64,000 nucleotides of DNA. Source: Paraconexibacter algicola. Its GTDB lineage: Bacteria; Actinomycetota; Thermoleophilia; Solirubrobacterales; Solirubrobacteraceae. The stretch lies in NCBI RefSeq assembly GCF_003044185.1, contig NZ_PYYB01000005.1:1-64000 (forward strand), in the 5' to 3' direction. Numbering within the stretch: position 1 is the first letter of the stretch; every line of letters starts with the position of its first letter. The notes below the pieces were generated by a model, which saw only the letters and a program-made list of their open reading frames with translations, made no database searches and was not told the DNA's origin. Below, in pieces: positions 16,881 through 41,856 of the stretch. Both the position numbers and the translations under genes were made by a program.

Positions 16881-18296
16881 ATGGGAACCCGACCGCCAGC
16901 CCTCTCGCAGATCGCCATCGCCGTCGTCTTCGCGCTCTCGGTGTTCGGCTTCACGCTGTTCGTCTGGAAGAGCTTCGGCGGCACCGTGCCGCTGGAGCCC
17001 AAGGGCTACGAGGTGCAGGTCCTGTTCGGCCGCGACGCCGCGCAGCTGACCTCCAACGCGTCGGTGCGGATCGCGGGCGTCCCCGTCGGCCGCGTCGTGC
17101 GGACCGAGCCGGTCGGGACCCGGATCCGGGCGACGATCGACCTCGAGCGCCGCTACGCGCCGCTGCCCGCCGACGCGCGCGCGATCGTCCGGGCGAAGAC
17201 GCTGCTGGGGGAGACGTTCATCGAGCTGACCCCGGGCACGAAGGGCCGCACGCCGGTCCCCGACGGCGGCACGCTCCCGGCCGGCAACGTGCAGGCCGCG
17301 GAGGGCCTGGACGACGTCCTGGCGAGCTTCGACGCCCCGACCCGGCAGGCGCTCAAGGACTTCCTGGGGGACGTCGACACCGCGCTCGACGGCCGTGCCG
17401 ACGACATCAGCGCGGTCCTCGGCAACGCCGCCCCGGCGGCGCGCGACCTGCGCCGCACCCTGGACGTGCTCGACGCCCAGCGTCCCGCGCTGCGCGCCCT
17501 GATCCGCGACTCGGCGACGACCCTGCAGACGATCGCCGACCGCGAGGGCGACCTGCGCGAGCTCGTCGTCGCCGGCGACGAGGTCCTCGACGCGACCGCC
17601 GACCGCAACGCGCAGCTGACGGCGACCATCCGCGAGCTCCCGGGGTTCCTGCGCGACGTGCGCAGCTTCTCCGGGGCGGTGGAGGACACGGCGCGGGAGG
17701 CGGCGCCGACGCTGCGGACCCTGCGCCCGGTCGCTCGGCAGCTGCGCCCGTCGCTGCAGGAGGCGATCCGCCTCGGGCCGAGCCTGCAGCGCCTCGCGCG
17801 CGGCATCGACCCCGTGGTGACCGCCGCCCGGCGCGGCCTGCCCGCCCTGACCCGGGTCGTGGACGCGGCGCGCCCGCTCGTCGGGGTGCTCGACCGCGCC
17901 GGGCGCGACCTCGTGCCGGTCGTCCGCTTCGTCGACGCCTACCGCGAGGACCTCGTGGCGGGCGCCGCGACGGTGGCGGCCGCGACGAACTACACGGTCC
18001 CCGGTCCGGGCGGCCGCCCCAACCGGGCGCTGCGCGTGCTCTCCCCGATCTGGAGCGAGGGGCTGCTCGGGGCCGAGAAGCGCTCGCCGACCAACCGCTA
18101 CAACCCGTACCACGTGCCCGGTGGGCTCGGGAAGATCATCGACGGGCCGCTGGCCTCGTTCAGCTGCAAGCACACGTCCAACCCGGCGAACGCCCAGTCG
18201 GCCGGTGCCCAGGCCGCGCCGTGCCTGCAGTCCGAGCCGTGGACGGTCGACGGGCGGACGTCGCAGTTCCCGCGGGTCGAGCCGCTGTCGAAGTAG
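16881..18296 (+). CDS. mce1F: Mce family protein, MceF position (operon 1)
   Basis: A 471-residue MCE protein, last gene of the operon. The TM helix is at about 9-29, the MlaD domain at about 42-120 (LTSNASVRIAGVPVGRVV and LLGETFIELTPG), and the helical coiled region runs to about 365. The distal domain contains NRYNPYHVPGGLGKIIDGPL and two Cys (SFSCKH and APCLQSE) that could form a disulfide. It completes the canonical two-YrbE, six-Mce set. Only 30 bp separate it from the convergent START-like gene. Confidence 0.88.
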   Translation: MGTRPPALSQIAIAVVFALSVFGFTLFVWKSFGGTVPLEPKGYEVQVLFGRDAAQLTSNASVRIAGVPVGRVVRTEPVGTRIRATIDLERRYAPLPADARAIVRAKTLLGETFIELTPGTKGRTPVPDGGTLPAGNVQAAEGLDDVLASFDAPTRQALKDFLGDVDTALDGRADDISAVLGNAAPAARDLRRTLDVLDAQRPALRALIRDSATTLQTIADREGDLRELVVAGDEVLDATADRNAQLTATIRELPGFLRDVRSFSGAVEDTAREAAPTLRTLRPVARQLRPSLQEAIRLGPSLQRLARGIDPVVTAARRGLPALTRVVDAARPLVGVLDRAGRDLVPVVRFVDAYREDLVAGAATVAAATNYTVPGPGGRPNRALRVLSPIWSEGLLGAEKRSPTNRYNPYHVPGGLGKIIDGPLASFSCKHTSNPANAQSAGAQAAPCLQSEPWTVDGRTSQFPRVEPLSK

Positions 18297-23393: not shown

Positions 23394-25724
23394 ATGGCAG
23401 GGAACATCCCCGCACGACGCGGGAGACGATGGGCCGCGGCTGCCGCCGCCGTCCTCGCCGCCGGCGTCCTCGTCCCGTCGACTGCGTCCTCGCAGCTGAC
23501 CGGCGACAACGATCTGCCGATTAACCCCCAGTGGCTCGCCAACACCCTCGGCAACGCCACGAACATCGGCCAGGTCAAGAACAACACGATCCCCGGCGCC
23601 ATCGAGCGCCGCGACAAGGCCGTGGCCGAGTGGAAGGCCGCGCAGGCCGCGTTCGAGCAGGGCAAGGGCAAGCAGCCCAGCCCGCTGGCCAAGCCGACCT
23701 ACAACGTCGTCTGGTCGTCCAAGCAGAACGTGGCCGACGTCCACGCCGACGTCATCAGCAAGCTCGTCACCAACGCGACGGTCAACCCGCAGGGCCTCGC
23801 CGACCTGCTCAACCCGCAGTTCCTGCCGGGCCTCGACGGCTTCCAGGTCATCGACACCCGCAAGATCAACCTCGACGGGTCGGAGAACCCCGATTACGGC
23901 AGGGTCGTCAACTTCGTCCAGCTCCCGCTGCCCTGGGGCCTGGAGAACGAGGCGCACCACATGCAGTACGAGTGGGAGGACGGGGACCCGATCCTCGCCG
24001 GCTCGCTGTTCATCGGCACCACGCACGTCCTCGGCGCCGACGACATCCCGAACCTCAAGCTGCTCAACGAGATCGCGCCCACGGAGTACCCGGGCGGCAC
24101 GATCGCCGACGCGTACGAGAAGGGGCCCGACGGCCGCTTCCTGCTGACGCTCATGGGCGGTCCGCTCGCGAACTTCGGCGGCTCCCCGGGCCAGCTCGTC
24201 ACGTTCAAGCCCGACAAGGAGAAGGGCGTCGTCGTCGAGTCCGCGGTCTCCGCCGGCAACATCGGCGGCGTGCTCTCCGGCAATGCCGGTGGCGTCCCGG
24301 AGCCCTGCTCGGTCCGCGAGGCCCGCCCGCTGGGCACCTGCGCCAACCCGCACGGCATCCAGATCCGCAACGACCTCGGCTGGGGCCTGACCTCCGACTA
24401 CGCCGAGCCGCGCGAGATCGTGCTCGACCCGGTCAAGACGGTCGACAAGTACGCGTTCCGCCCGACGATCCGCTCGTGGGACACCTCGAAGGCCGGCTCG
24501 CCGGTGCTCAAGGGCGTCGCCAACGTGCCGGACGGCCCGCTCGAGCCCGCCAACCGCGCGCACGAGCAGTACGGGATCATGGAGAACGCCAAGACCTACC
24601 CCGACGCCAGGAAGAAGTACGGCGGCATCGACTCCAAGGGCTTCTTCGCGGGCTCGATGTGCGGTGGCGGCGTGTTCTTCGTCCCGGACATCACCAAGGC
24701 GAAGGGCGACTTCTCCGACCAGGTCGTGCAGGTCTGGAACGACGGTCTGTCGATCATCCGCAGCGGTGACGGCGGCAACCAGAAGTTCTCCGACGAGCCC
24801 GGCGGCTGCGCCGGCGGTGCGTGGCACCAGGTGACCCCGAACAACAAGCTGCTGTTCCGGGCCGTCCAGGGCCGCAACCCCGCGTCGGACAACTACTTCG
24901 ACCAGGGCCAGGCCAAGCTCATCTACGACATCGACATCTCGCCGGTGATCGAGTCCGCGCAGGACGGCACCGTCGAGTGCGACCTGTCGCGGGGCATCAA
25001 GCGCCTGAACCTCACGGGCATCCAGGTGTTCAACAAGCTCGCCAAGGGCGAGGTCGTCGCCGACTGCCCGAAGTTCGTCGACGCGCTGAAGGTCAACGAC
25101 GTGACGTCCGGCGGCCCGCACTGGGCGGCCTTCGACAACCACTCGATCGACCAGAACGGCGTCCCGTGGCGTCTCACGTTCTCGAACTACTTCGTGTCGC
25201 GGACGGGCGTCGACGGTGACCACCGCCTCTACGCGGTGGACGTCTCGCCGGAGGGCAAGCTCTCCTACGACGACGCCTGGCGGGACGAGAAGACCGGCGC
25301 CCTGGGCGTCAACTTCAACCGCCGCAACTGGCCCGGCAACCCCGACGCGGGCTTCTACAAGCCGCACTCGGAGATCTGGGTCTGCCCGCCCGGCATCTGC
25401 CCGACGGACGCCAAGCCGGCCGTCCGCGCTGTCGCTGCCGCGAACACGAAGTCCTGCGCCAGCCGCCGGAACTTCACGATCCGCCTCGACAAGGTCAAGG
25501 GCCACCGCGTCCTCGGCGGCACCGTGACGGTGGCCGGGAAGAAGGCCAAGGCGGCCAAGCGCAACGCGAAGACCGGTCGCTACACGACCACCGTCGACCT
25601 GCGCTCGACCACGAAGAAGAAGGTCAAGGTCACGCTGCGGATCAAGGTCCGCAACCTGAAGACCGGCAAGACCCGGACGATCACCCGCACCCGCACGTAC
25701 ACCACGTGCGCCGTGAAGAAGTAG
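23394..25724 (+). CDS. Secreted SBP56 / methanethiol-oxidase-like beta-propeller protein
   Basis: A 776-residue exported protein with a signal peptide (about 1-33, ARRGRR then an Ala-rich core). Residues 100-665 follow the order of SBP56-family motifs: NEAHHMQYEW (188-189 HH), TCANPHGIQI then LTSDYAEP (His320), NRAHEQYGIMEN (His390), AWHQVTPNNKLLF (His478), GPHWAAFDNHS (His576, His583), and a terminal HSEIWVC that parallels the family's C-terminal SDIWI. Relatives bind copper and oxidise methanethiol to formaldehyde, H2S and H2O2. A Lys/Arg/Thr-rich tail of about 100 residues with two Cys follows. Copper-uptake-type genes lie 16 bp downstream. The family call is by motif order, not alignment, so the enzyme activity is an inference. 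Confidence 0.6.
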   Translation: MAGNIPARRGRRWAAAAAAVLAAGVLVPSTASSQLTGDNDLPINPQWLANTLGNATNIGQVKNNTIPGAIERRDKAVAEWKAAQAAFEQGKGKQPSPLAKPTYNVVWSSKQNVADVHADVISKLVTNATVNPQGLADLLNPQFLPGLDGFQVIDTRKINLDGSENPDYGRVVNFVQLPLPWGLENEAHHMQYEWEDGDPILAGSLFIGTTHVLGADDIPNLKLLNEIAPTEYPGGTIADAYEKGPDGRFLLTLMGGPLANFGGSPGQLVTFKPDKEKGVVVESAVSAGNIGGVLSGNAGGVPEPCSVREARPLGTCANPHGIQIRNDLGWGLTSDYAEPREIVLDPVKTVDKYAFRPTIRSWDTSKAGSPVLKGVANVPDGPLEPANRAHEQYGIMENAKTYPDARKKYGGIDSKGFFAGSMCGGGVFFVPDITKAKGDFSDQVVQVWNDGLSIIRSGDGGNQKFSDEPGGCAGGAWHQVTPNNKLLFRAVQGRNPASDNYFDQGQAKLIYDIDISPVIESAQDGTVECDLSRGIKRLNLTGIQVFNKLAKGEVVADCPKFVDALKVNDVTSGGPHWAAFDNHSIDQNGVPWRLTFSNYFVSRTGVDGDHRLYAVDVSPEGKLSYDDAWRDEKTGALGVNFNRRNWPGNPDAGFYKPHSEIWVCPPGICPTDAKPAVRAVAAANTKSCASRRNFTIRLDKVKGHRVLGGTVTVAGKKAKAAKRNAKTGRYTTTVDLRSTTKKKVKVTLRIKVRNLKTGKTRTITRTRTYTTCAVKK

Positions 25725-25740
25725 TCCCCGTCGCACCCTG

Positions 25741-28584
25741 ATGGTCCGACGCCTCGTCGTCGGCACGCTCGCCGCGCTCGGTGCCCTCATGGGCACCGGG
25801 CCGGCGACGGCGCTGGCGCATCCCCTCCTGCTGCAGTCCGCCCCCCAGGCCGGACTCGTCAGCCCCCAGGCTCCCGACGCGATCCGTCTCGCGCTCAGCG
25901 AGTCCGGCGTCGCGCGCGGCTCCCGCATCGAGCTGCTCGACGCCCGCGGACGCCGCGTCCCCACCTCGCCGGTGGTCGCCTCCGCCGGCAACCGCACCTT
26001 CTCCGTCACCCCCCGTCGCACGCTGCCCAGCGCCGTCTACACGGTCCGCTGGAGCGTCCTGGGCAACGACGGCCACCTCGTCCGCGGCACGTTCGACTTC
26101 GGCGTGGCCGGGGCCGGCGGCGCCGCCCCGCCCGGAGCCGAGAAGCTCGGCGGCACCGGCGCCGGCGGCCGCGGCGGCGAGAACGCCGTCAGCGACGGCG
26201 TCGTCGCCGTCCTCGGCCGCTGGCTCGGCGTCGCCGCCGCCGCGCTGCTGCTCGGCGCCTTCGTGCTGCTGGCGCTCCTGCGCCGCCGCGAGGACCCGTC
26301 CCTCGACGCGGCCCGCGCGCGTGTCCGCGCCGCCGCGCCGCTCACCTGGATCCTCGTCGGCTTCGCGGCCGTCGAGGGCGTCCTGGCCGCCGCCACCTCC
26401 GGCACGGGCGGCGAGGTCGACCTCGGGCTGCTGACCGCCGCCCCGACCGCGCGCGCCGACCTGCTGCGGCTCGTCCTCTTCGCGCTCGTCACCGTGGCGC
26501 TGCTCGCGCTCGGCGAGCGCCGCGACCCGCTCCGCGGCCGGCTGCTCGCCGGCGGCGCCGTCGCGATCCTGCTCACCTACGCGCTGTCCGGGCACGTCCT
26601 GTCCGACCCGTCGGCGTGGACCGTGCTGGACCAGACCGTGCACGTGCTGACCGCGAGCCTGTGGCTCGGGGGCGTGCTGGCGATCGTGCTGCTCACCGTC
26701 CGCAGCGCGGTCCCGGCGGTCAGCGCCGCGCGGGCGTTCGCCCCGGTCGCCGCCGGGGCGCTCGGCGTCGCGATCGTCACCGGTGTCCTGGCCGCCGTGC
26801 GCGAGGTCGACGCCTGGTACTTCCTGCGCTGGTCGGACTACGGGCGCGTCGTGCTCGTGAAGTCCGCGCTCGTCGCGCTCGTCGCGGTCGCCGGTGCCGT
26901 CGTCTTCTGGCGCGCGCGCCGCGCCGGGGCCGCGCCCGCGGGGCGCGGCCCGCGGCTCGTGCGCGTCGAGGCGGTCGGCGTCGTGGCGATCGTCGGGCTC
27001 GCCGCGGCGCTCTCGGGCATCGCCCAGGGCCGCGGTCAGCCGCTCCCCGCCGAGCGTGGCACGCTGTTCGCCGGTCCCGCGTTCGGGACGGCGCTGCTGG
27101 CCGACGGCGGCGCGCAGCTGACGCTCGCGCCCGCGCGGCGCGGGAGCAACGTGCTCACGACGATGCTCCCGCCCGAGGAGCGCACCCCGCAGCGCATCAG
27201 CGTCCGCCTGGCGCGCGCCGGGGCTCCCGGCAAGGACATCCGCGTCACGCTGCGCCGCGGCGACGGGCCGGCCTGGTCGGCGCCCGTCGAGCTGCCGCAG
27301 GACGGCACCTGGTTCGCGTACGTGACCGTCGACGGGGACGCGTCGACCTCCCCGGTCCAGCTCGGGGTCGGCGTGCCGCAGGCGCCCGGCTCGACGCCGC
27401 TGGACGTCGTCGCCGTCGCCGACCTCAGCGGTCCCGACGCCGAGCGCTGCCGTGCGCACGTGCTCGGCACCGGCCTGGCGATCGCCCGGCTCAACGGGGA
27501 GGGCGGGCTCGACGGTGGCCGCAAGGTGGCGTCGAAGGTCCTCGACAGCGGCGGCGATCCCGCCCGGGCCGTCGCGCTCGCGCGCGGGGCCGTCGCCGAC
27601 GGGCGGCGACCCCTGGCCGCGGTCGGCAGCTGCGGCAGCGGCGGCGAGCGGGCCGTCCGCGTGCTCCAGCGCGCCGGCGTCCCGGTCGTGATCGGCGACC
27701 CGACCGTCGGGCCGGTCGCCGGCTCCGGCGTCTTCCGCACCGCCGCCGACCCGTACGCGCAGGGCATCTCGTTCGCGCAGATCGTCACGCAGCGCGTGCT
27801 GCCCGCCGCCCCGGTCGGCGTCCGTCGCATCCCGGTGATCCTCGGCAGCGACCAGGCGTCGCAGCGGCTCCTGGCCGGCCTGCGCCGCGGCCTCGCCGGC
27901 AGCGAGGCGCGGCTCGACGTCCGGCGACCCGGGGACCTCGCGCGACGGTCGCTCGACGACCGCGAGGACGCGATCAGCCAGCTCGAGGTGCTCGCGACGG
28001 TGATCGACGTGCCGTCGACCGAGCGCCGCGACGTCGACGCGCTCACCGCGCTGGGCCGCGACCGGGAGGGCATCGTGCCCGCCCCGGTCCTGCTGTCCGA
28101 GCGGGTGCTGTCCGAGCGCGTCATCCGCTCCGCCGGGTCGCTCGGCCGGATCGGGGCGCTGCAGGGCGTCAGCGAGGTCTCGCCGACGACCGCCGACGGG
28201 ATTCTCTACCGGCAGTCCGTGCCGCTGCTGTACCGCGGTGACCTCGCCTCGCTCGACGGCCTGCGCGGCTACGTCAGCGGCCTGGCGCTGCGCGACGCGG
28301 TCCGCCGCGGCGGGATCGGGGCGGACGGCGTGATCGACGCCTTGCGCGACCCGGGCGTGTTCACCAGCGCCCTGCTCGCGCCGTGGACCGCACGGCAGCC
28401 CGGGGCCGGCTCGCCGGCCACGCTGGCGGTGCAGCCGCTGTTCCTGTCGCCGACCGTCACGCCGCCGTCCGCGGGCGGCACGCCGCGCGCCGCGGCGTAC
28501 TTCCCGGACGGCACGTGGACCGCGACGTCGGGCCTGCTCGGCGTCGGCCCGCAGACCGGGCCGGCCCCGCAGCTGGCCCGCTGA
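25741..28584 (+). CDS. CopC-CopD fusion carrying a periplasmic substrate-binding-protein domain
   Basis: A 947-residue protein. After the signal peptide the mature N-terminus would be His27 (ALA-HPLLLQSAPQ). Residues 27-123 are a CopC domain whose Cu(II) ligands correspond to His27 and His112 (NDGHLVRG). About 155-425 is a CopD-like membrane domain with around eight helices. About 450-540 is an extra beta-rich segment. About 545-900 looks like a type-I periplasmic-binding fold (VVAVADLSGPDAERCRAHVL, LNGEGGLDGGRKV, VGSCGSGGERAVR, VPVVIGDPTVG). CopC-CopD pairs take up copper; fusion to a binding-protein fold is unusual. It starts 16 bp after the SBP56-like gene, so the two are probably one transcript. 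Confidence 0.75.
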   Translation: MVRRLVVGTLAALGALMGTGPATALAHPLLLQSAPQAGLVSPQAPDAIRLALSESGVARGSRIELLDARGRRVPTSPVVASAGNRTFSVTPRRTLPSAVYTVRWSVLGNDGHLVRGTFDFGVAGAGGAAPPGAEKLGGTGAGGRGGENAVSDGVVAVLGRWLGVAAAALLLGAFVLLALLRRREDPSLDAARARVRAAAPLTWILVGFAAVEGVLAAATSGTGGEVDLGLLTAAPTARADLLRLVLFALVTVALLALGERRDPLRGRLLAGGAVAILLTYALSGHVLSDPSAWTVLDQTVHVLTASLWLGGVLAIVLLTVRSAVPAVSAARAFAPVAAGALGVAIVTGVLAAVREVDAWYFLRWSDYGRVVLVKSALVALVAVAGAVVFWRARRAGAAPAGRGPRLVRVEAVGVVAIVGLAAALSGIAQGRGQPLPAERGTLFAGPAFGTALLADGGAQLTLAPARRGSNVLTTMLPPEERTPQRISVRLARAGAPGKDIRVTLRRGDGPAWSAPVELPQDGTWFAYVTVDGDASTSPVQLGVGVPQAPGSTPLDVVAVADLSGPDAERCRAHVLGTGLAIARLNGEGGLDGGRKVASKVLDSGGDPARAVALARGAVADGRRPLAAVGSCGSGGERAVRVLQRAGVPVVIGDPTVGPVAGSGVFRTAADPYAQGISFAQIVTQRVLPAAPVGVRRIPVILGSDQASQRLLAGLRRGLAGSEARLDVRRPGDLARRSLDDREDAISQLEVLATVIDVPSTERRDVDALTALGRDREGIVPAPVLLSERVLSERVIRSAGSLGRIGALQGVSEVSPTTADGILYRQSVPLLYRGDLASLDGLRGYVSGLALRDAVRRGGIGADGVIDALRDPGVFTSALLAPWTARQPGAGSPATLAVQPLFLSPTVTPPSAGGTPRAAAYFPDGTWTATSGLLGVGPQTGPAPQLAR

Positions 28585-31641: not shown

Positions 31642-32934
31642 ATGCCGTCCCGTTCCCCGCTCGTCGCGGCGCTCCTCGTCGCCGCGCTGCTGCCCGCCGC
31701 CGCGCCCGCGCGCGAGCTCGTCGGCGGCTACGGCAGCCAGACCCTCACCGGGGGCCCGGGCCCCGACCGCCTCGACGGTCGGTCGGCCGACGACGTCCTG
31801 CGCGGTGCGGCGGGCGACGACGTCCTCGACGGAGGCACCGGGAACGACCGCCTGTCCGGCGGGGCCGGGCACGACTGGCTCGACGGCGGTGACGGGGACG
31901 ACGACCTGCGCGGCGGTGACGGGGACGACCTCCTCCTCGAGCGCGGCTTCGGCGACGACCGCCGGCTCGACGGCGGGGCCGGCGACGACGTCGTGCTCGG
32001 CGGCCGGGGCGGCGACGCCCTGCTGCTCGGCGGCGCCGGCGACGACGTCCTCGGCGGCGGGCGCGGCCCGGACGTGCTGGCGGGCGGCGACGGCGACGAC
32101 CTCCTGGACGCCGGTCCCGGGACCGACCGCGTGACGGGGGGCGCGGGAGCGGACCTCCTGATCGGCGGCAGCGGCGCGGACGTCCTCGACGGCGGCCCGG
32201 GGGACGACGCGATCTGGCTCGGCCGCACCGTGCAGACGGTGGTGTGCGGCCCGGGCACCGACACCGTCTACTGGCCCTACCACGGCGCTCGCGCCGTCGG
32301 CACCCCGGCCGAGGTGCTCGGCGGGCACGGCGCGCGCTTCGCCGACTGCGAGCGGCTCGTCGCCCGGCGGGTGGCCGGCGCCCCGTGGATTGAGGCCGGC
32401 GACGTGGTGCGCGCCAGGGTCAACGCCGGGCTGCGTCGGGCGCCGGCGGCCGCGCTCGCCGCGATCGAGGCGATCCGGGGGGCGGACGGCATCACCTCGA
32501 CCCCCTGGGCGACCCTGGGGGACGACTACCTCAGCATGACCGCCCTGCGCGCCGCCGGGTACGTGGGGCCGCTGCACGGCCGCGACGGCGCCGACCACCT
32601 TGAGGGGTCCGCGGTCGGGGACTGGCTCGACGGCGGACCGGGCGCCGACCGGCTCGAGGGGCGCCGCGGCGACGACGTGCTGCTCGGCGGCGACGGCGAC
32701 GACCGGCTCGAGGGCGCCCGCGGCGACGACGCCCTCGACGGCGGCGCGGGCCGCGACGCGCTCACCGGCGGCTACGGCGCCGACGTGCTCCGCGGCGGCC
32801 CCGGCGACGACCTCCTGCGCAGCGTCGACGGCGAGCGCGACGTGGTCGACTGCGGCCCGGGACGCGACCGCGTCGAGGCCGACCGCCTCGACGTCGTCCG
32901 CGGCTGCGAGCGCGGGCGCCGCGCCGCCCGCTGA
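31642..32934 (+). CDS. Secreted RTX (GGxGxDxLx) calcium-binding repeat protein
   Basis: A 430-residue protein: a signal peptide (about 1-24), a block of some 17 nonapeptide repeats at 30-195 (GGAGDDVLDGG type), a non-repeat middle of about 125 residues with two Cys (VVCGPGTDTV, FADCERL), and a second repeat block at 310-400. RTX repeats wind into a calcium-bound beta-roll. Type I secreted RTX proteins lack a signal peptide, but this one has a Sec-type signal, as in many actinobacterial surface RTX proteins, and no ABC exporter is nearby. A catalytic domain was not recognised; the middle region could be an adhesion or structural module. Confidence 0.8.
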   Translation: MPSRSPLVAALLVAALLPAAAPARELVGGYGSQTLTGGPGPDRLDGRSADDVLRGAAGDDVLDGGTGNDRLSGGAGHDWLDGGDGDDDLRGGDGDDLLLERGFGDDRRLDGGAGDDVVLGGRGGDALLLGGAGDDVLGGGRGPDVLAGGDGDDLLDAGPGTDRVTGGAGADLLIGGSGADVLDGGPGDDAIWLGRTVQTVVCGPGTDTVYWPYHGARAVGTPAEVLGGHGARFADCERLVARRVAGAPWIEAGDVVRARVNAGLRRAPAAALAAIEAIRGADGITSTPWATLGDDYLSMTALRAAGYVGPLHGRDGADHLEGSAVGDWLDGGPGADRLEGRRGDDVLLGGDGDDRLEGARGDDALDGGAGRDALTGGYGADVLRGGPGDDLLRSVDGERDVVDCGPGRDRVEADRLDVVRGCERGRRAAR

Positions 32935-32941
32935 CCGCGGC

Positions 32942-34228
32942 TCAGGGCAGCTCGGCGGGGCGCAGCCGCGGGGTCTGGCCGCGCTCGTAGGGGCGGTTGT
33001 CCGCCGCGTCCCCGGGCTGCGGGTAGGCGTTGGTCGGCAGCGAGGACCGCTGCGACAGCAGCTGCGCCGGGTCGGCGAAGATGAAGAACCGCGCCCACCG
33101 GCCCTTCGCGTCGCCGTTGCGCCCGAGCGCCGCGGTGTTCGCGAACCAGGCGGCGATCGCGTCCTTGCGCGGCTCGAGATAGCGCACGGCGGTGACGACG
33201 TTGCGCAGCGTCGGGTCGAGCCGACGGGCGGCCGGCCGGGCGGCGGCGATCACCGGTCCCGCGGCGCGCAGCAGCGGCAGTGCTGCGGCGCGTACGGGCG
33301 CGGCCCGGTCGAGCACGGCGCGCAGGTCCTGGGCGGCGGCCGGGAGGGCGTCGAGCGCCCCGGTGAGCGGCCGCGCGGTCGCGCGCAGGTCGGCGACGAG
33401 CGGGCGCGCCTGCGTCAGCAGCGGCCGGGCGCTGCGCAGCGTCCGGTCGGTGGTGGCGAGCAACCGCGGCGTCTCGGTGAGCGTCGCGCGCAGCGCGCGG
33501 TCGCGCCGCGCGGTGGCCTGCAGCGTCGTGCGGGCCCCGGTCACCAGACGGCGCAGCTGCCCGTCGCGGACGGCGAGCTCGCCGACGACCCGGCGCCCGG
33601 CCCCGACCGACGCGGCGATGTCCCCGGTCTGGTCGCGCAGCGTCGTGCCGAGCACGTGCAGCTCCTGCACCGTGCGGTGCAGCTCCCCGAGCGTGCCCGA
33701 GACCCGCTCCGCGGTCTCGGGTGCCGCCGCGCCATGGCCCGCCTCGCGCACCGTGGCGGCGAGGTCCTCGCGGGCCCGGGGGCCGAGCGCGGCGAGCGCC
33801 TCGTCGACCTGCACCGTGTCGCGGACCGCGCTCGCCGGCAGGGTGGCGCCGGACGGCAGCCGCGAGGCGCCCGCGGGACCCGGGACGAGATCGACGTACG
33901 CCTCCCCGAGGAGCGTCTTGCTGCCGACGCGCACGGTGGCGCCGCGGTGCACGTCGACCGGCTCGGCGTCGAGGACGAGGCGCGCGCGAGCGACGCCGCC
34001 GCGCACGCGCAGCCCGGTGACGCGGCCGACCTTGACCCCGCGCACGAGGACGTCGCTGCGCTCCGTGAGCCCCTGGGTGTCGCCCAGCGTCACGCGCAGC
34101 TCGTACGGATCGTCGAGCCGGATCGACGGACCGCCGAAGCGCGCGGTCAGGATCAGCAGGATCGTCACGGACGCGACGACGAAGGCGACGAGGGCCAGGG
34201 CGCCGCCGCGCGGGATCTCGAGGTTCAC
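32942..34228 (-). CDS. mce2F: Mce family protein, MceF position (operon 2)
   Basis: A 428-residue MCE protein, last gene of operon 2. It has a TM helix at about 10-31 and an MlaD domain at about 42-125 (DTQGLTERSDVLVRGVKVGR and LLGEAYVDLVPGPAG). The long Ala/Arg/Leu helical body follows and the tail reads FANTAALGRNGDAKGRWARF. The GTG start (34228) overlaps the previous stop as GTGA. It is part of the lipid-import channel with YrbE2A/B. Sequence similarity to mce1F is only at domain level, so the two operons are old paralogues rather than a recent copy. Confidence 0.87.
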   Translation of the reverse strand: MNLEIPRGGALALVAFVVASVTILLILTARFGGPSIRLDDPYELRVTLGDTQGLTERSDVLVRGVKVGRVTGLRVRGGVARARLVLDAEPVDVHRGATVRVGSKTLLGEAYVDLVPGPAGASRLPSGATLPASAVRDTVQVDEALAALGPRAREDLAATVREAGHGAAAPETAERVSGTLGELHRTVQELHVLGTTLRDQTGDIAASVGAGRRVVGELAVRDGQLRRLVTGARTTLQATARRDRALRATLTETPRLLATTDRTLRSARPLLTQARPLVADLRATARPLTGALDALPAAAQDLRAVLDRAAPVRAAALPLLRAAGPVIAAARPAARRLDPTLRNVVTAVRYLEPRKDAIAAWFANTAALGRNGDAKGRWARFFIFADPAQLLSQRSSLPTNAYPQPGDAADNRPYERGQTPRLRPAELP

Positions 34229-35640
34229 GGCCGGTCCTTCCGGGGCAGCGCGCCGAGCGGGTCGGCGGCGGTGCGGACGGCCCCGGGCAGGCCGGGGACG
34301 AGGTAGCGCACGAGGCAGGCGAGCGGGTTGTGCTCGGCGCAGACCTTCGTGAGCGCCGCGACGACCTGCATGCCGGCGCGCAGCCGGGCGGCGGGGGTCG
34401 TGGCGCTGAAGCCGAAGTTCGCCGGGTTGAACGTCTCGAAGAAGCCGAGGCCGCGGAGGATCGGGCCGTTGACGTCGTTGGTCGAGAAGATGCCGGTGAA
34501 GCGCTCGCCGAGCAGGCCGATCCCGTCGCGGTTGCGGTCGATCGCCGCCACGGTCGGGGCCGCGTCGCGGACGGCGGGCTCCAGGGCGGTCGCGGCCGGT
34601 CCGAGGCGCTGGAGGGTCACGCGCAGCGTGCGGGAGGCGGTGCGGGTCTGCCGGGCGGTGCGGCGCAGCTCGCCGAGCAGGGCGCGCGTCGCCGGGGTGC
34701 TGTCCCGCAGCGCGTCGAGCGCCCCGGGGATGGCGCGGGCGACCGGGCGCAGCCGCTCGAGCGCCGGGTCGAGCGGGTCGGCGAGCCGCTGGACGCCGTC
34801 GAGCGCCGCCCGGACGTCCGCGAGCGTCCCGGGCAGCCGGTCGACGGCGGCGGCGATCTCCGCGTCGCGGGCGGCGCTCACCGCGACGGTCCGGCGGCCC
34901 GCGCCGACCGCGCGCTCGAGCGCGTCGGCACGGGCGGCGAGCGCCCCGGTGAGCGTGTCCAGGCCGCCGACGAGACGGCGCAGCAGCACGCGGCGCTCGG
35001 CGAGCGTGCGCGCGACCCGCCCGCCGGAGACGCGCACCGGGTCGAGCTGGCGCAGGGCGGCGGCGACGCGTCCGCCCCGGGCGTCGCCGAGGCCCTCGTC
35101 GAGCCCGGCGAGGAGCAGCTGCAGCTGCGAGCGGGTGTCGGCGTCGAGCGTCTCGAGGACCTGGTCGAGCTGCGTGGCGCCGGCCGCCCGGGCCACCGGG
35201 ATGCGGTCCCCGTCGAGCAGGGCGGGGGCGTCGAGGCGGCCGGGGGTGAGGTCGAGCACGAGGTCGTTGAGCGCCGAGCGCGGCTGCACGGTCGCGCGGG
35301 CCCCGGCGTGCAGGCGGCCGGCGGTGTCGCCGTCGAGGCGCAGGGTCGCCACGGCGACGCCGCGCTCGGGGTCGTGGCGGACCTCGTCGACCCGTCCAGC
35401 GGGGACGCCCGCGATGGTCACGCGGTTGCGGTCCTCGGTCGACAGGCCCGAGGCGTCGCGCAGCTCGACGCGGACCTCGTAGGAGTCGTCCCACGGCATC
35501 CGCGGGTCCTGCTGGGCGAGCAGGAAGGCGGCGAGCGCGAGGGCGACGACGGCCTGCAGCACGACCGCCAGGCGGCCGAGCCGCGGGCGCGGCCCGGCGA
35601 GCGCGCGGCCGGCGGGGACGGGACGGCGACGGCGGCTCAC
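34225..35640 (-). CDS. mce2E: Mce family protein, MceE position (operon 2)
   Basis: A 471-residue MCE protein: an Arg/Pro-rich cytoplasmic start, a TM helix at about 22-42, an MlaD domain (RVELRDASGLSTEDRNRVTI, AGVPAGRVDEV) and a helical region. The tail includes FTGIFSTNDVNGPILRGLGF and a Cys pair (KVCAEHNPLACL) likely to be disulfide-bonded. The GTG start 35640 overlaps the mce2D stop by 4 bp, and its own stop overlaps mce2F. Confidence 0.86.
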   Translation of the reverse strand: MSRRRRPVPAGRALAGPRPRLGRLAVVLQAVVALALAAFLLAQQDPRMPWDDSYEVRVELRDASGLSTEDRNRVTIAGVPAGRVDEVRHDPERGVAVATLRLDGDTAGRLHAGARATVQPRSALNDLVLDLTPGRLDAPALLDGDRIPVARAAGATQLDQVLETLDADTRSQLQLLLAGLDEGLGDARGGRVAAALRQLDPVRVSGGRVARTLAERRVLLRRLVGGLDTLTGALAARADALERAVGAGRRTVAVSAARDAEIAAAVDRLPGTLADVRAALDGVQRLADPLDPALERLRPVARAIPGALDALRDSTPATRALLGELRRTARQTRTASRTLRVTLQRLGPAATALEPAVRDAAPTVAAIDRNRDGIGLLGERFTGIFSTNDVNGPILRGLGFFETFNPANFGFSATTPAARLRAGMQVVAALTKVCAEHNPLACLVRYLVPGLPGAVRTAADPLGALPRKDRP

Positions 35641-36935
35641 GGCGTGCACGCTCCCGCGGTGGCGAACGCGTCGGCGAGCTCGGGGCGCAGGCGCTCGAGG
35701 AGCGTGCACGGCGCAGCGGGCAGGCCGATCCCGGTGAGGAAGCGGAAGCCGAAGCGCATGAAGTGCCCGGCCCCAGTGCTGCCGCCCTGCGCCGGGGTCT
35801 GGAAGGCGCGCGACGCGCCGCCGCCGCCGGCGAACATGTTCAGGAACGCGCGGTAGGCCGGGATGCCCAGGCCGGTCTCGCGCAGCAGCGCGGGCAGCAG
35901 GGTCGCGTCGAGCGTGCGCAGCGTCGGCGTCGTGGTGCGCAGGACACGCCGGGTGGGCGTGGCGGCGCGGCGACCGGCGGGCAGTGCGACCCGCAGGTCG
36001 GCGACGAGCGGCCGGGCGGCCACGAGCGCGCTCGACGCGTCGCGCAGCAGCGGGCGTGCGGTCCGCAGCGTCGGGGCCAGCCGCCGGGCGCCGGGCCGCA
36101 GCGCGGCGGCGACGGGCTGCAGCCGCGCGACGGTGCCGTCGAGGCGGCGGCCGCCGTCCCGCAGCGCGACGGCGGTGGCGGGCAGGGCGGCGATCGTGCG
36201 GCGCAGCGCGGCGCGGCCGGTGGCCACCCGCCCGCGCAGCGCGGCCGCGGTGGCGGCGGTGTCGCGCATCAGCGGGGCGAGGTCCCGCTCGCGGGCGGCG
36301 AGCGCCGACGTGGTGGTCGCCAGTTGCGTGACGGTGCGCTGCAGCGCGGCCGGACGCGGGCCCTGGGCGGCCTCGGTCACCCAGGCGGTGTCGCGCAGCA
36401 GGGCGGGTGCGTCGCCGAGCAGGCGGTTGACGGCGGCGCGCGCGCCGGGCTCCAGCGCGCGGGCCAGGCCGGCGGCGGTCCCGCGGACGCGTGCGCGGGT
36501 CGGGGCGTCGGCGAGCCGCAGGACCGTGTCCAGCGAGGTGAAGGTCGTCGTCCGCGCCAGCGGCAGGACGCCGTCGCCCAGCGGCGCGGACCGCGGGCCG
36601 CCGGGCTGCAGGTCGATGAAGGCGGTGCCCTCGAACGCGAGCCGCGGGCGCAGCTGCGCGGTCGCGTCGCGCCGGACGGTCCCGGCGGCGTCGTCGAGCT
36701 CCATCGTCACCTCGGCGACGGCGCCCACGCGGCGCTTGCCGGTCACCCGGCCGACGGGCGTGCCGGCCATGCGGACCTCGGCGCCGATGAGCTGGAGCGC
36801 CCCGGCGTCGGCGAACACGGCGCGGACCTCCGTCGGGTCGGCGAACGGGTTCGGGCGCAGCCACGCGAGCAGCACGCCGGCGACGAGCAGCAGGGCGACG
36901 AGGGCGCCGCGCAGGGCGGTGCGGGTCAGCGGCAC
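35637..36935 (-). CDS. mce2D: Mce family protein, MceD position (operon 2)
   Basis: A 432-residue MCE protein with a TM helix near residues 8-26, an MlaD domain (ADAGALQLIGAEVRMAGTPV, FEGTAFIDLQPGG), an Ala/Arg-rich helical body and a tail with GHFMRFGFRFLTGIGLP and two Cys (PCTLLERL, GACTP). It overlaps the upstream mce2C by 10 bp at ATG 36935. The composition is exceptionally rich in Arg and Ala even for this family. Confidence 0.86.
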   Translation of the reverse strand: MPLTRTALRGALVALLLVAGVLLAWLRPNPFADPTEVRAVFADAGALQLIGAEVRMAGTPVGRVTGKRRVGAVAEVTMELDDAAGTVRRDATAQLRPRLAFEGTAFIDLQPGGPRSAPLGDGVLPLARTTTFTSLDTVLRLADAPTRARVRGTAAGLARALEPGARAAVNRLLGDAPALLRDTAWVTEAAQGPRPAALQRTVTQLATTTSALAARERDLAPLMRDTAATAAALRGRVATGRAALRRTIAALPATAVALRDGGRRLDGTVARLQPVAAALRPGARRLAPTLRTARPLLRDASSALVAARPLVADLRVALPAGRRAATPTRRVLRTTTPTLRTLDATLLPALLRETGLGIPAYRAFLNMFAGGGGASRAFQTPAQGGSTGAGHFMRFGFRFLTGIGLPAAPCTLLERLRPELADAFATAGACTP

Positions 36936-38206
36936 GGTGCCTCCTGCGTGAGCGCCTCGCCGGGAGCCGGGTAGGCGTCGCGGGCGCGGTGGCAGGTCAG
37001 CACCATGCTGAAGCGCACGGCGCGCGCCCCCGACGCCTGCCCCTCGGCGAAGCGGAACCCGCCCCAGGTGGTGAAGCCCTCCGGGGCGAGGAGGATCTCG
37101 CGGCGGTACGGGACGAGGTGTGTGGCAAGCGAGCCCAGCGGCGTGGCGAGCGGGCGCAGGAGCGCGGTCGGGACGCGCAGCTCGCGCAGCAGCGGGGCGG
37201 CGGCGCGGAGCACGGGCGTCGCGGCCCGGCCGACGCGCGCGAGGTCGTCGAGTGCCTCGTCGCGGCGCAGCGCCGCGCGCAGCGACGGGACGGCGCGGCG
37301 CAGCGAGACGGCCGCGGGGCGCAGGTCGACCGCGGCGACCCGGAGGTCCTCCAGGAGCTGGTCGGCCTGCGGGAGGACGGTGGCGACGGTGCGCTCCGCC
37401 GCCGGCAGGGTGCGCAGGGTCGCGTCGACGGCGGGCGACGGGACGGCGTCGAGCGTGCGGCGGGCGGCGGGCACGGCGTCGGCGAGCGCGCCGTCGGCGT
37501 CGGCCGCCCGGACCGTGGTGCCGAGGTCGCCGAGCAGCGCGGCGAGCTCGCCCGGGCGCGGCGTCGTCGCGCGGGCCAGCGGCGTCAGGCGCGCGGCGGC
37601 GGGACCGAGGGTGGCGACGGTCTCGCCGAGCTCGCGCCCGCGGCCGGCGAGACCGCCGCCGAAGCCGGTCAGCGCCGAGCGGCTGGCCGCACGGGTGGCC
37701 GCGTCGAAGGTCTCGACGACGTCCGCGAGATCGGGTGCGGCGCTGGCGGCGGTGTCCGGGAGCCGGGCGGGGGAGGGCAGCACCGGTCCGGTCCCGGGGT
37801 CGAGGTCGAGGTAGGTGGCGCCCGCCAGGCCGCGGATGCGCACGCGCACGGTGGCGTCGCGGGCGACGCCGCGACCGACCGCGCCGTCGAGCGCGAGCGT
37901 GAGCCGCGCGCCGGTCGGGTCGGCGCGGTCGACCTCGACGCGGCGCACCTCGCCGGCGCGCTGCCCGCCGATGCGGACCTCGTCGCCGTCCTTCAGCGGC
38001 GGCGCGCCCGGGGTGGCGGCGTCGACGCGCAGCTGGACCTCGTAGGCGCGCTCCAGCGGTCCGCCGTCGATCGCGACGGTGGAGAGGTACGCGACGAGTG
38101 CGACGAGCGTGACGACGACAAGCCCGAGGGCGAGCAGGCCGTTGCCGCGGGGGGCCTCGTCGTTGACGGCCAGGTGGCCGCGCAGGCGGGTGCGTCGGCG
38201 GCTCAT
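36926..38206 (-). CDS. mce2C: Mce family protein, MceC position (operon 2)
   Basis: A 426-residue MCE protein: a cytoplasmic N-terminus of about 22 residues (MSRRRTRLRGHLAVNDE), a TM helix at about 24-44, an MlaD domain with PPLKDGDEVRIGGQRAGEVR and LAGATYLDLDPG, a helical body, and a conserved-type tail (LLAPEGFTTWGGFRFAEGQA) with two Cys. ATG 38206 overlaps the mce2B stop as ATGA. Confidence 0.87.
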   Translation of the reverse strand: MSRRRTRLRGHLAVNDEAPRGNGLLALGLVVVTLVALVAYLSTVAIDGGPLERAYEVQLRVDAATPGAPPLKDGDEVRIGGQRAGEVRRVEVDRADPTGARLTLALDGAVGRGVARDATVRVRIRGLAGATYLDLDPGTGPVLPSPARLPDTAASAAPDLADVVETFDAATRAASRSALTGFGGGLAGRGRELGETVATLGPAAARLTPLARATTPRPGELAALLGDLGTTVRAADADGALADAVPAARRTLDAVPSPAVDATLRTLPAAERTVATVLPQADQLLEDLRVAAVDLRPAAVSLRRAVPSLRAALRRDEALDDLARVGRAATPVLRAAAPLLRELRVPTALLRPLATPLGSLATHLVPYRREILLAPEGFTTWGGFRFAEGQASGARAVRFSMVLTCHRARDAYPAPGEALTQEAPCR

Positions 38207-39633
38207 GGGCGCAGCAGCTCCTGAAGCGTGGAGCCGGTCCGCGACGACGGGCCGAGCAGGTCCTGCAGCGCCTCGCGGACGTCGGGCAGCAGCGACGGCA
38301 GGAGCGGGCCGGGGGCGGCGGCCGGGCGGTCGCCGTCGGCGGGCGTGGGGGTCACGGCCGCGGGGACGGTCGGGGCCGGGGTGCGGTCGCGCTGCGGCCG
38401 GGCCGTCGTGCGCGTCCCGTCGCCGGCGGCGCCGCCGAGGAAGCGGGTGAGGCAGCCGGGCGCGACCTTGACGCCGAACGCCTCGCAGGAGAGGACGGCG
38501 GCGCCGCGCCAGTAGGTGCGCCGCGGGTCGGCGAACGGGTCGAACGGCTGCCTCCCGGATTCGGAGCCCTGGTCGGCGAAGTTCACGAAGAACCCCTCGG
38601 AGATGTCGGGCGCGGCGTCGCGCGCGATCGCGGCGAGCTCCCGGACCTGCGGGGCCACCGTGGTCAGCGCGCCGAGCCCGGAGGCGAGCGAGCGCAGCGC
38701 GGGGGTCCCGTCGCGCAGGGTGCTGCGCAGGGCGGCGAGCGTCGGGGTGAGGTCGCGCGCGGCGGTCCGCAGGCCGCGCAGGAACGGGGGCAGCTCGGTG
38801 AGCGCCCCGGCGACGCCGGGGGCGGCGTCGCGCAGCTCGCGGGCGAGCGGCACGGCGGCGGTCGCGGTGGCGTCCAGCCGCCGGGCGGTGCCGGAGATCC
38901 GGGTGAGCGTGGCGGGCAGGTCCTGCAGGCCGCGGTCGAGGTCCCGTCCGCGGCGGTCGGTGGTGGCGAGCAGGCGGTCGAGCCCGTCGACGGTCCCGGC
39001 GACGTCGCCGCGGCGCGCGGCGAGCGAGCCGACGGCGCGGTCGGCGTCCTGCACGAGCGCGCCGAGCGCCGCGTTCTGGGCGTCGAGCTCGCGCAGGACG
39101 CCGTCGCTCGCGCGCAGGGCGGGACGCAGCTCGATGGCGGCGCGCCCCAGCTCGGCCCCGCGGGCGCCGAGCGTCCGGCCGGACTCGGCCAGCAGCGCGC
39201 GCAGGCCGGCGCGGACCGGGGCGTCGAAGGTGGAGAGCAGCTCGTCCAGGCGCGGCGCGTTGCTCGTCCGGGCGACCGGGATCGGGCCGCGCAGCGGCTC
39301 GGTCGCGGTGCCGGGCGTGAGCTCGACGTACACGTCGCCGAGCAGGTCGACGGGCCGGATCGCCGCGGTGGCGTCGGCGCGCAGGGCGGGCAGGCCGTCG
39401 TGGAGGTCGAGGTCGACGCGCGCGGTGCCGCGGTCGGTCAGCTCGATCGCCGCGACCGACCCGGCGGGCGCGCCGCCGAGCCGCACCTCGGCGCGGGGGA
39501 CGAGCCCGCGGGAGCTCGTGAACTCGGCGCGGACGTCGACGTCGGGGCCGCCGCGCAGCAGCAGGACGGCGGCGACGGCCGCGGCGGCGCCGAGGAGCAG
39601 GAGGGTGGTGGCGGTGGCGGCGCGGCGGCTCAT
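38203..39633 (-). CDS. mce2B: Mce family protein, MceB position (operon 2)
   Basis: A 476-residue MCE protein: a TM helix at about 8-26, an MlaD domain (FTSSRGLVPRAEVRLGGAPA, LLGDVYVELTPG) and a helical body. The distal segment includes EGFFVNFADQGSESGRQPFD with two Cys (VLSCEAF, PGCLTRF), followed by a Pro/Ala/Thr-rich linker and a short terminal helix SLLPDVREALQDLLG. The Pro-rich tail plus terminal helix mirrors mce1B of operon 1, supporting the positional equivalence. It overlaps both neighbours by ATGA. Confidence 0.87.
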   Translation of the reverse strand: MSRRAATATTLLLLGAAAAVAAVLLLRGGPDVDVRAEFTSSRGLVPRAEVRLGGAPAGSVAAIELTDRGTARVDLDLHDGLPALRADATAAIRPVDLLGDVYVELTPGTATEPLRGPIPVARTSNAPRLDELLSTFDAPVRAGLRALLAESGRTLGARGAELGRAAIELRPALRASDGVLRELDAQNAALGALVQDADRAVGSLAARRGDVAGTVDGLDRLLATTDRRGRDLDRGLQDLPATLTRISGTARRLDATATAAVPLARELRDAAPGVAGALTELPPFLRGLRTAARDLTPTLAALRSTLRDGTPALRSLASGLGALTTVAPQVRELAAIARDAAPDISEGFFVNFADQGSESGRQPFDPFADPRRTYWRGAAVLSCEAFGVKVAPGCLTRFLGGAAGDGTRTTARPQRDRTPAPTVPAAVTPTPADGDRPAAAPGPLLPSLLPDVREALQDLLGPSSRTGSTLQELLRP

Positions 39634-40889
39634 CGGCCGTCCCCGCCGACGTAGCTGTCGCGGTAGTCGGTCCACGGCTCGTCCTGCAGGACGCCGGGCT
39701 CGCGCACGAACGGGGCGCGCAGGTGGCCGGCGGCGTTCGTGCTGCCGTCGATCTGGTTCAGCGGCGCGGGCGGGAGGACGAGCCCGACGCGGGCGGCGTG
39801 CCCGTTGGCGTCGAAGTTGCTCGTGAAGTCCGCCCAGCCGGAGAAGAACGAGAAGAAGTCGGGGAGCCGCACGCGGGTCTCGTCGAGCACGGGCCCGGCG
39901 ACGCGCAGGACGTCGTCGAGCCGCGGCAGGACCTTGCGGGCGGTGGGCAGGACGGCGCGTAGGGCGTCGAGGTCGCCGGGGGCGGTGCGGGTCAGCGCGG
40001 CGGCGTCGCGCAGCACCGGGCGGGCGTCGCGCAGCGCCGTGGCGAGCTCGGGGGCCGCGTCGCGCAGCTCGCGGGTGCCGGGGCGCAGCTCGCGCACGAG
40101 AGCGCGGAGGGTCGGGGTGGCGGTGCGGATACGCTCGAGCGCGCGTCGGGGGGCGGCGAGCCCGGCGGGCAGACCGGCCAGGGCGTCGCCGAGGGCGGCC
40201 TGCTCGGCGGCGGTGTCCGCCAGCAGCGCGGCGACCTCGTCGACGGCGGCGCCGGTGGCCCCGGGGTCCGCGGCGAGCGCGCCGGTGACGCGCCGGCCGG
40301 AGCGGACGAGCTCCTGCAGGGCGCGGCCGTCGGCGGTGACCTCGCCGAGCGCGGCGGCGGTGCCCTGCAGCGCGCGGGTGCTGCGTCGCAGGGCGCCGGC
40401 GAGCGCGTCGCCGCGGCCGTCGGTGGCGCCGCGCAGGCCGGTCAGGACGGCGCGGACCTCGCCGCGGGTGCGGGGGTCGAGCGTGGAGAGGACGTCGTCG
40501 ACCTCCACCGGCTGGTCGGTGCGGGCGAGGCCGAGGGTGGCCCCGTCGGCGAGCAGCGGCCCGTCGCCGGGGGTGACGGCGACGTAGCGGTTGACGGTGC
40601 CGCTGAGCGAGCCGAGCCGCAGGTCGGCGCGGGCGCCGCGGCGCAGGCGCACGTCGTCGTCGAGCCGCAGCGTGACGCGGGGCCGGCCGTCGCGCAGCGC
40701 GATGTCCTGGACGCGCCCGACCCGCAGTCCGCCCATGCGGACCTCTGCGCCGCGGACGAGTCCGTTGACGCCGTCGAACACCGCGACGACGCGCTGCCCG
40801 TCGGCCCCGCCGCCGGGGCCGAGCAGCAGCACGGCGACGGCGAGCACGGCCGCTCCGAGGGCGGCGGCGGCGAGCGACCGGCTGCTCAT
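39630..40889 (-). CDS. mce2A: Mce family protein, MceA position (operon 2)
   Basis: A 419-residue MCE protein with a TM/signal-anchor helix at about 6-24, an MlaD domain (FDGVNGLVRGAEVRMGGLRV, GSLSGTVNRYVAVTPG), a helical region, and a tail with DFFSFFSGWADFTSNFDANG that parallels the equivalent ANGH segment in mce1A. ATG 40889 overlaps the yrbE2B stop (ATGA). Confidence 0.87.
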   Translation of the reverse strand: MSSRSLAAAALGAAVLAVAVLLLGPGGGADGQRVVAVFDGVNGLVRGAEVRMGGLRVGRVQDIALRDGRPRVTLRLDDDVRLRRGARADLRLGSLSGTVNRYVAVTPGDGPLLADGATLGLARTDQPVEVDDVLSTLDPRTRGEVRAVLTGLRGATDGRGDALAGALRRSTRALQGTAAALGEVTADGRALQELVRSGRRVTGALAADPGATGAAVDEVAALLADTAAEQAALGDALAGLPAGLAAPRRALERIRTATPTLRALVRELRPGTRELRDAAPELATALRDARPVLRDAAALTRTAPGDLDALRAVLPTARKVLPRLDDVLRVAGPVLDETRVRLPDFFSFFSGWADFTSNFDANGHAARVGLVLPPAPLNQIDGSTNAAGHLRAPFVREPGVLQDEPWTDYRDSYVGGDGR

Positions 40890-41689
40890 CCCACCGGGAT
40901 CCGCGGGTTGGCCGACCAGAAGATGAGCGTCCCGGCCATCGAGATGACGGTGACGCCGATGATCGAGACGCCCATCGAGCGGGCGGTGGCGGCGCCGACC
41001 TCGACGGGGCCGCCCCGGACGCCGTAGCCGAAGTACAGCGAGACGAGCAGCACCCACGCAGCGATGACCGTGCCCTTGACCATCGAGTAGACGAGGTCCC
41101 AGCCGTCCTGGAAGGTGAAGAAGAACAGCGACCAGGTGCCGGGGGACACGTCGCCGAAGCGGACGACCGACATGAGGTAGGCGGCGGCGTACGCGGCACC
41201 GATGCTGAGCAGGTAGGCGAAGGGCAGCACGGCGACGCAGGCGAGCAGCCGCGTGACGCCGAGGTAGGCGAGCGAGCGGACGCCCATCGACTCGAGCGCG
41301 TCGATCTCCTCCTGGACGCGCATGGCGCCGAGTTCGGCGACGAAGCCGCAGCCGACCTTGGCGGCGAGGATGTAGCCGAAGACGAACGGGACGACCTCGC
41401 GCAGCGAGCACCAGGTCGAGAAGCCGCCGGCGATCGGGTCGAAGCCGAAGCTGCGCGCCAGCGCGGTGGACTCCAGGCCGCACGAGCCGCCGGCGAGGAA
41501 CGCGACCGCGACGATCACGAGCGTCGAGCCGGTGGCGATCATCGCGGCCTGGCGGGCGGCCTCGGCGAGGTAGCGGCGCACGTCGGGCGTGGCCCGGGCG
41601 AGGGCGCGGGCGAACGACGCGAGCTCGCCGAGCAGCTCGAGCGGGCCGCGGGCGGCGGGGCGCTGGTTGCGGGAGGCGAGGCGGCTCAC
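40886..41689 (-). CDS. yrbE2B: Mce operon 2 permease YrbE-B (MlaE family)
   Basis: A 267-residue MlaE-family permease: ILAAKVGCGFVAELGAMRVQ then EEIDALESMGVRSLAYLGVT is the conserved coupling region, and the end FWSANPRIPVG matches YrbEB C-termini. GTG 41689 is used; the region upstream to 41,800 is low-complexity Thr/Arg/Pro. It heads the contiguous part of operon 2, but its expected YrbEA partner lies 2.9 kb away beyond the chemoreceptor gene, which reads in the opposite direction. Confidence 0.88.
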   Translation of the reverse strand: MSRLASRNQRPAARGPLELLGELASFARALARATPDVRRYLAEAARQAAMIATGSTLVIVAVAFLAGGSCGLESTALARSFGFDPIAGGFSTWCSLREVVPFVFGYILAAKVGCGFVAELGAMRVQEEIDALESMGVRSLAYLGVTRLLACVAVLPFAYLLSIGAAYAAAYLMSVVRFGDVSPGTWSLFFFTFQDGWDLVYSMVKGTVIAAWVLLVSLYFGYGVRGGPVEVGAATARSMGVSIIGVTVISMAGTLIFWSANPRIPVG

Positions 41690-41856
41690 GAGGGACGGGC
41701 GGCCCGGGGTGCGTGCGGCCGGCGCGTGGCGGGTGCGCGCGTCGTGGTCGTGGGGCGGTGCCCACGGGCGGTGGTGGTCCCGGAGGAAGGCGTGGTCATG
41801 CGCGGGGAGCGGCGCCGCGGACCCCTGCCCGGACGCCTAACTCGATAATGCCAGTA

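Follow-up and report, generated by a model that had tools for sequence, protein, structure and literature searches.

What do the two adjoining genes at positions 23394–28584 of the window (the whole 64,000-nucleotide stretch of Paraconexibacter algicola DNA that we analyzed) encode, and could they form a copper-dependent system that oxidizes sulfur compounds outside the cell? A sequence-only reading had proposed as much: a secreted SBP56-type methanethiol oxidase, loaded with copper by a CopC–CopD protein. We re-derived the open reading frames and recovered exactly the coordinates, lengths and spacing given there. Gene 1 (23394–25724, + strand) encodes 776 amino acids and gene 2 (25741–28584, + strand) encodes 947; by ORF coordinates, 16 bases separate them. 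An HU gene lies upstream of gene 1 on the same strand, and scans at the operon found no promoter-like or terminator-like sites. Genes with MlaD/MCE domains occur on either side of the region (one at 16881–18296 on the + strand and several at 32942–41765 on the − strand), and close 3′ of the operon, at 31642–32934 (+), is a gene for a 430-amino-acid protein with nine matches to the RTX calcium-binding nonapeptide repeat.

The N-terminus of the gene 1 protein resembles, as judged by eye, the signal peptide that had been proposed for it (residues ~1–32; RRGRRW followed by AAAAAAVLAAGVLV). A helical part (~36–105), the propeller (~105–670) and a C-terminal domain (683–776) follow. The protein alone had no match in Pfam, NCBIfam or a single-sequence search of the PDB. 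Against the Pfam SBP56 model (PF05694, gathering cut-off 34 bits) it gave no match at E ≤ 1, and its relatives stayed under the cut-off, at 19–24 bits (E 2e-5 to 7e-4) in Streptomyces and 16.6–19.7 bits elsewhere. A profile search of the PDB placed Sulfolobus SBP56 (2ECE) first, but with E 0.016 over 38 residues only. We then compared a profile of 38 gene 1 homologues with 11 canonical SBP56 sequences using hhalign. Results showed a match of 96.2% probability (E 2e-9) over 364 columns. Nitrous oxide reductase (1.5%) and lactonase propellers (0.1%), used as negative controls with the same gene 1 profile, failed, and we therefore regarded the SBP56 match as specific. A lactonase propeller was ruled out by this test.

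The predicted structure of gene 1 agreed with the profile comparison. Its AlphaFold model, computed from an alignment that left out the plasmid-borne homologues, had a pTM of 0.89 and a mean pLDDT of 82.8, and a Foldseek search with it ranked 2ECE first (E 3.9e-14; next best 5e-9). VIA alignment of the model with 2ECE gave Z 27.2 and rmsd 3.3 over 383 residues, the longest alignment in the table, with generic propellers tying in Z (1l0q, 28.2). Profile search and structure prediction thus made gene 1 an SBP56 homologue over the whole propeller, as had been suspected, and did not place it in another propeller family. We concluded from homology and fold that gene 1 encodes an exported seven-bladed beta-propeller, which belongs to a deep branch of the SBP56 superfamily that had no name before. 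The window's own genome contains no canonical SBP56.

The sequence-only reading had also described six spaced histidine motifs in the SBP56 order. All six histidines (H188, H189, H320, H576, H610 and H658) are invariant in 38 of 38 aligned homologues, but the HxxH and Asp of SBP56 are not kept. Human SELENBP1 needs all four elements (HH, HxxH, Asp and Glu) for its activity (PMC10362175). The HH motif is present in gene 1 as H188–H189 (23955–23960; this and the following codons are on the + strand), a blade motif that aligned with H73/H74 of SELENBP1 in every hhalign mode and with the HH of 2ECE; the Glu is present as the invariant E397 (24582–24584), aligned with E252. In contrast, the HxxH motif (H137/H140 of SELENBP1) is absent, and its columns in the profile alignment hold D239 and E242. 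D239 (24108–24110) is invariant, begins the inner strand of the next blade and aligned with the first His of HxxH. Asp189 of SELENBP1 is not kept either; its column is P319/H320, and H320 (24351–24353), part of an invariant NPHG, aligned with it one residue off. The alignment of homologues adds an invariant Trp at a channel position (W477, 24822–24824), H576 (25119–25121) in an invariant GPHW where SBP56 has GGPQ, H610 (25221–25223) in a DGDHR motif, and H658 (25365–25367) in KPHS of the last blade. The C-terminal His of SBP56 (His412 of Hyphomicrobium MtoX) paired with H658 in the local hhalign mode and with N642 in the global mode. The heptapeptide HSEIWVC, which had been taken for the end of the protein, does occur at 658–664, but ~110 residues follow it.

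In the AlphaFold model, read together with the alignment, the inner strand of each of the seven blades carries one invariant residue set (HH188/189, D239, H320, E397, W477, H576 and H658). From these strand positions we infer that the residues would cluster along the central channel and bind copper, the metal on which SBP56 enzymes depend as thiol oxidases (PMC10362175; PMC5739008). Because gene 1 keeps the HH and the Glu while the HxxH and the Asp are replaced, a metal site is likely, rearranged from yet related to that of the SBP56 methanethiol oxidases. For the same reason, and with a score below the Pfam SBP56 cut-off, the proposal that gene 1 belongs to the methanethiol oxidase family itself was not supported, and on its sequence gene 1 cannot be claimed as a proven methanethiol oxidase.

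The Lys-rich tail that had been offered as a distinguishing feature of the enzyme proved to be common property of this genome. It is a Cys-flanked basic domain of ~85 amino acids (residues ~683–776; 25440–25721, + strand; C-x-S-R-R ... R-Y-R-T-C) that lies outside the enzyme core and has no Pfam match. A profile search found about 18 copies in the genome, at the C-termini of exported and in many cases unrelated proteins, among them a peptidase S15 and a protein with FG-GAP repeats. The domain also occurs across the genus and was noted at twelve loci besides the window's. This distribution marks the tail as a feature of the lineage and not of the gene 1 enzyme; it is possibly a surface-retention domain.

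Gene 2 had been described as a CopC–CopD protein. Both domains scored above their Pfam cut-offs, but the description missed the C-terminal half of the protein, and gene 2 is a fusion of CopC, CopD, a beta-sandwich and a periplasmic-binding-protein domain. The CopC domain (residues 27–122; 25819–26106, +) matched PF04234 with E 1.8e-14 (54.9 bits, cut-off 23.3) and has its copper ligands in place, as claimed: His27, which is the residue expected at the N-terminus after signal cleavage, Asp110 and His112. The CopD-type membrane region (~155–424; 26203–27012, +) comprises hydrophobic stretches with His285 and His301, and matched PF05425 over residues 329–424 (34.4 bits, cut-off 32.1). The beta-sandwich (~445–545; 27073–27375, +) was recognized in the AlphaFold model and sits where YcnJ has its YtkA domain; its match to FixH was weak (E 0.0041; 17.6 bits, under the cut-off of 23). 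No YtkA domain was detected at E ≤ 1e-4 in the window's own genome, and only three of the 60 genomes searched had YtkA matches. The last domain (~552–935; 27394–28545, +) has the type-1 periplasmic-binding-protein fold and matched Peripla_BP_6 over residues 556–684 (50.7 bits, cut-off 31.7). An AlphaFold model of the C-terminal half (pTM 0.91) contained the beta-sandwich and the full binding-protein fold, the latter aligning with 4n03 over 351 residues (Z 33.4, rmsd 3.4).

The pair occurs in many Actinomycetota and is nearly always intact. A 199-genome sample of the window's class had gene 1 homologues in six further genomes, and in a sample of 296 actinobacterial genomes four contained the family, three of which belong to the window's own family; 80 of the loci kept came from named actinobacterial genomes. 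Homologues with 31% identity occur on Streptomyces plasmids. A gene 2 homologue followed the gene 1 homologue in 84 of 89 loci, all in Actinomycetota, and two of the five loci without it were contig ends. Members of the gene 1 family are labelled only 'hypothetical' in annotated Streptomyces records, and the literature we searched held no description of the family, including in combination with CopD, Actinobacteria or YeeE. In one genome (G093; L013/L046), gene 1 appeared as a six-frame match with one internal TGA plus a separate N-terminal piece (L018), possibly a frameshift or a sequencing error.

The composition of gene 2 varied by lineage. A CopC domain occurred in the partners of Thermoleophilia loci and of L061 and L067, on two separate branches of the gene tree. 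Pseudonocardiaceae partners kept the CopD-like membrane part without CopC, and Streptomyces partners were reduced to the C-terminal module with one or two membrane helices. By this comparison CopC is dispensable, and the constant part of gene 2 is a membrane anchor with the C-terminal module. The idea that a CopCD protein in place of SCO1/MauG is the chief difference from known mto operons was thus not supported. Toward the C-terminus, partners lacking a CopC-like N-terminus had a loop rich in Met and His (the terminal 70 residues contained 3.0 Met and 1.6 His, versus 0.2 and 0.4 in partners with it). This trend would fit a swap of one copper-binding device for another, in sequences that are not independent and are confounded by phylogeny. 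Because CopC and even most of CopD were lost in some lineages, the main function of gene 2 may be something other than copper delivery.

The neighborhoods of the relatives pointed to sulfur. Of the 89 loci, 33 (from ten genera) had a YeeE/YedE gene (PF04143) near the pair, in most cases as the adjacent gene; in the gene tree these 33 loci fell in Pseudonocardiaceae. In two Kutzneria genomes (11.6 Mb) and one Amycolatopsis genome (10.7 Mb), the nearby gene was the only PF04143 gene in the searched sequence; a single copy in genomes of that size makes chance an unlikely explanation of the adjacency. In the Frankiales/Acidimicrobiia loci L061, L067, L077 and L120, on two tree branches, an MBL-rhodanese gene lay within a few kb of the pair. 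Rhodobacteraceae methanethiol oxidases release sulfane sulfur, which a persulfide dioxygenase clears (PMC10936201), and by analogy the MBL-rhodanese-type neighbors would fit such release; they score under the NCBIfam cut-off for persulfide dioxygenase and are not equivalogs of that enzyme. The Streptomyces plasmid copies L023 and L025 lay between cysC/cysD/PAPS reductase/sulfonate ABC genes and a sulfite reductase, and L026 adjoined cysD; copy L024 had none of these genes alongside. No sulfur gene turned up next to the operon in the window's own clade. The sulfur role proposed for the operon is nevertheless supported, since four other clades have relatives that adjoin sulfur genes, and the presence of the operon beside sulfur-uptake genes in other lineages probably marks an unrecognized route to extracellular sulfur harvest. 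On contig C3 of genome G000 (192579–193475), far from the operon, the genome's PF04143 match falls in two half-length pieces. Eight Pseudonocardiaceae loci have, downstream of the pair, a gene for a small exported protein whose motif is close to V-DEPDT-x(2)-L ... PLGVPV-x-GL.

On balance we lean slightly toward the operon being a copper-dependent extracellular sulfur (thiol) oxidase system in which gene 2 is the membrane copper/ligand partner. Outside the membrane, the propeller would oxidize a small compound of reduced sulfur (probably a thiol), and would release sulfane sulfur or a different inorganic form of sulfur for import by the cell. Gene 2 would anchor the system to the membrane, its CopC domain would capture Cu(II), and its CopD region and beta-sandwich would hand copper to the propeller; the binding-protein domain might bind substrate or product, or else the propeller, which is the weakest step of the proposal. 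We propose copper delivery by gene 2 because YcnJ (CopC–CopD–YtkA) of Bacillus imports copper for oxidase assembly (PMC13344008); the loading of gene 1 by gene 2 is consistent with the intact CopC ligands here and with the Met/His-rich loop of relatives that lack CopC, but unproven. A bolder reading, which we hold only tentatively, makes the propellers a class of copper oxidases in their own right, a sister group of SBP56 whose metal site is rearranged and which has a dedicated copper-delivery and ligand-binding membrane partner. Their role would be extracellular sulfur acquisition, supplying YeeE-type import in Pseudonocardiaceae and the synthesis of cysteine in Streptomyces. In that equally tentative scheme, the site would differ from that of SBP56 by an exchange of Asp and His between two neighboring blades and by two extra invariant His, and maturation would proceed without a MauG-type enzyme.

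Three other explanations must be weighed against a thiol oxidase. The intact CopC ligands of gene 2, its YcnJ-type architecture with a copper-import role, and the Met/His-rich loops of its relatives would also suit copper homeostasis or buffering, in which the propeller stores or scavenges extracellular copper, the CopC–CopD protein imports it, and nothing is catalyzed. We consider this unlikely: the recurrent neighbors are sulfur genes, Streptomyces keeps the propeller with a partner that has no CopC and only 1–2 TM helices, and the invariant Asp, Glu and Trp at channel positions look catalytic. It is slightly more doubtful that gene 1 is some other oxidase or hydrolase on a propeller scaffold, or a metal-free binding protein, related to SBP56 by ancestry only. 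Such a view could cite the loss of the HxxH, the replacement of the SBP56 Asp and the near-equal VIA Z of generic propellers (28.2 for 1l0q, 27.2 for 2ECE), but six histidines stay invariant in homologues down to 31–33% identity and the control propeller families fail by profile.

The transporter beside the Pseudonocardiaceae copies raises the question of selenium, since its best NCBIfam match was selen_YedE_FdhT, at 128 bits, with the thiosulfate transporter TsuA behind it at 73 bits, and SBP56 was named for selenium binding (PMC10362175). The propeller would then bind or oxidize a selenium compound that the YedE-type transporter imports. Both scores are, however, far under their cut-offs (350 and 400 bits), three of the four Streptomyces copies examined adjoin sulfate-assimilation genes, and selenium binding is unnecessary for SELENBP1 activity (PMC10362175); we judge a selenium role to be improbable. 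If thiol oxidation by the operon is correct, a protein family so far only 'hypothetical' in annotated Streptomyces records would gain a function, copper-dependent thiol oxidation would reach a new branch whose active site differs, and Actinomycetota would gain a route to sulfur from extracellular thiols. The family would also make it possible to test which of the metal ligands are truly required in SBP56 enzymes.

Lastly, we compared the operon with known systems. The nitrous oxide reductase propeller (CuZ), a copper propeller, shares HH and NPHG-like motifs with gene 1 and ranked second in Foldseek (5i5m, E 5e-9), but kinship was ruled out by the profile probability of 1.5%; gene 1 has no cupredoxin domain, and no nos genes were observed. 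Branched-chain amino acid-type binding proteins (Peripla_BP_6, LivJ; 4n03, 3td9) share the fold and the Pfam match of the gene 2 C-terminal domain. They differ in that the gene 2 domain is fused to a membrane copper protein, has no ABC transporter genes beside it in the window, and has a much shortened counterpart in Pseudonocardiaceae and Streptomyces. YcnJ of Bacillus subtilis has, like gene 2, CopC and CopD, intact CopC ligands and a beta-sandwich after CopD, whereas gene 2 adds a whole binding-protein domain, is tied to a propeller gene and has relatives that drop CopC.

The mto operon (mtoX-SCO1/senC-mauG; Eyice et al., PMC5739008) likewise places a propeller gene before a gene with a copper-delivery domain. 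Here, in contrast, the partner is a CopC–CopD–sandwich–binding-protein fusion, there is no TTQ-type maturation gene, and relatives of the pair occur in a sulfur-assimilation rather than a C1 context. The window's genome has no MauG, hence none adjoins the operon, and its SCO1 genes are on other contigs, with no SCO1/SenC beside the operon. Compared with SBP56/MtoX/SELENBP1 (PF05694; 2ECE), gene 1 falls under the Pfam cut-off, has Asp in place of the HxxH and the NPHG His in place of the SBP56 Asp, carries the extra invariant His576 and His610, and adjoins neither SCO1 nor MauG. It shares with these proteins the seven-bladed propeller, profile homology over the whole length, the HH and the conserved Glu, and it resembles MtoX in its export (by its signal, judged by eye) and in its operon with a copper-related gene.
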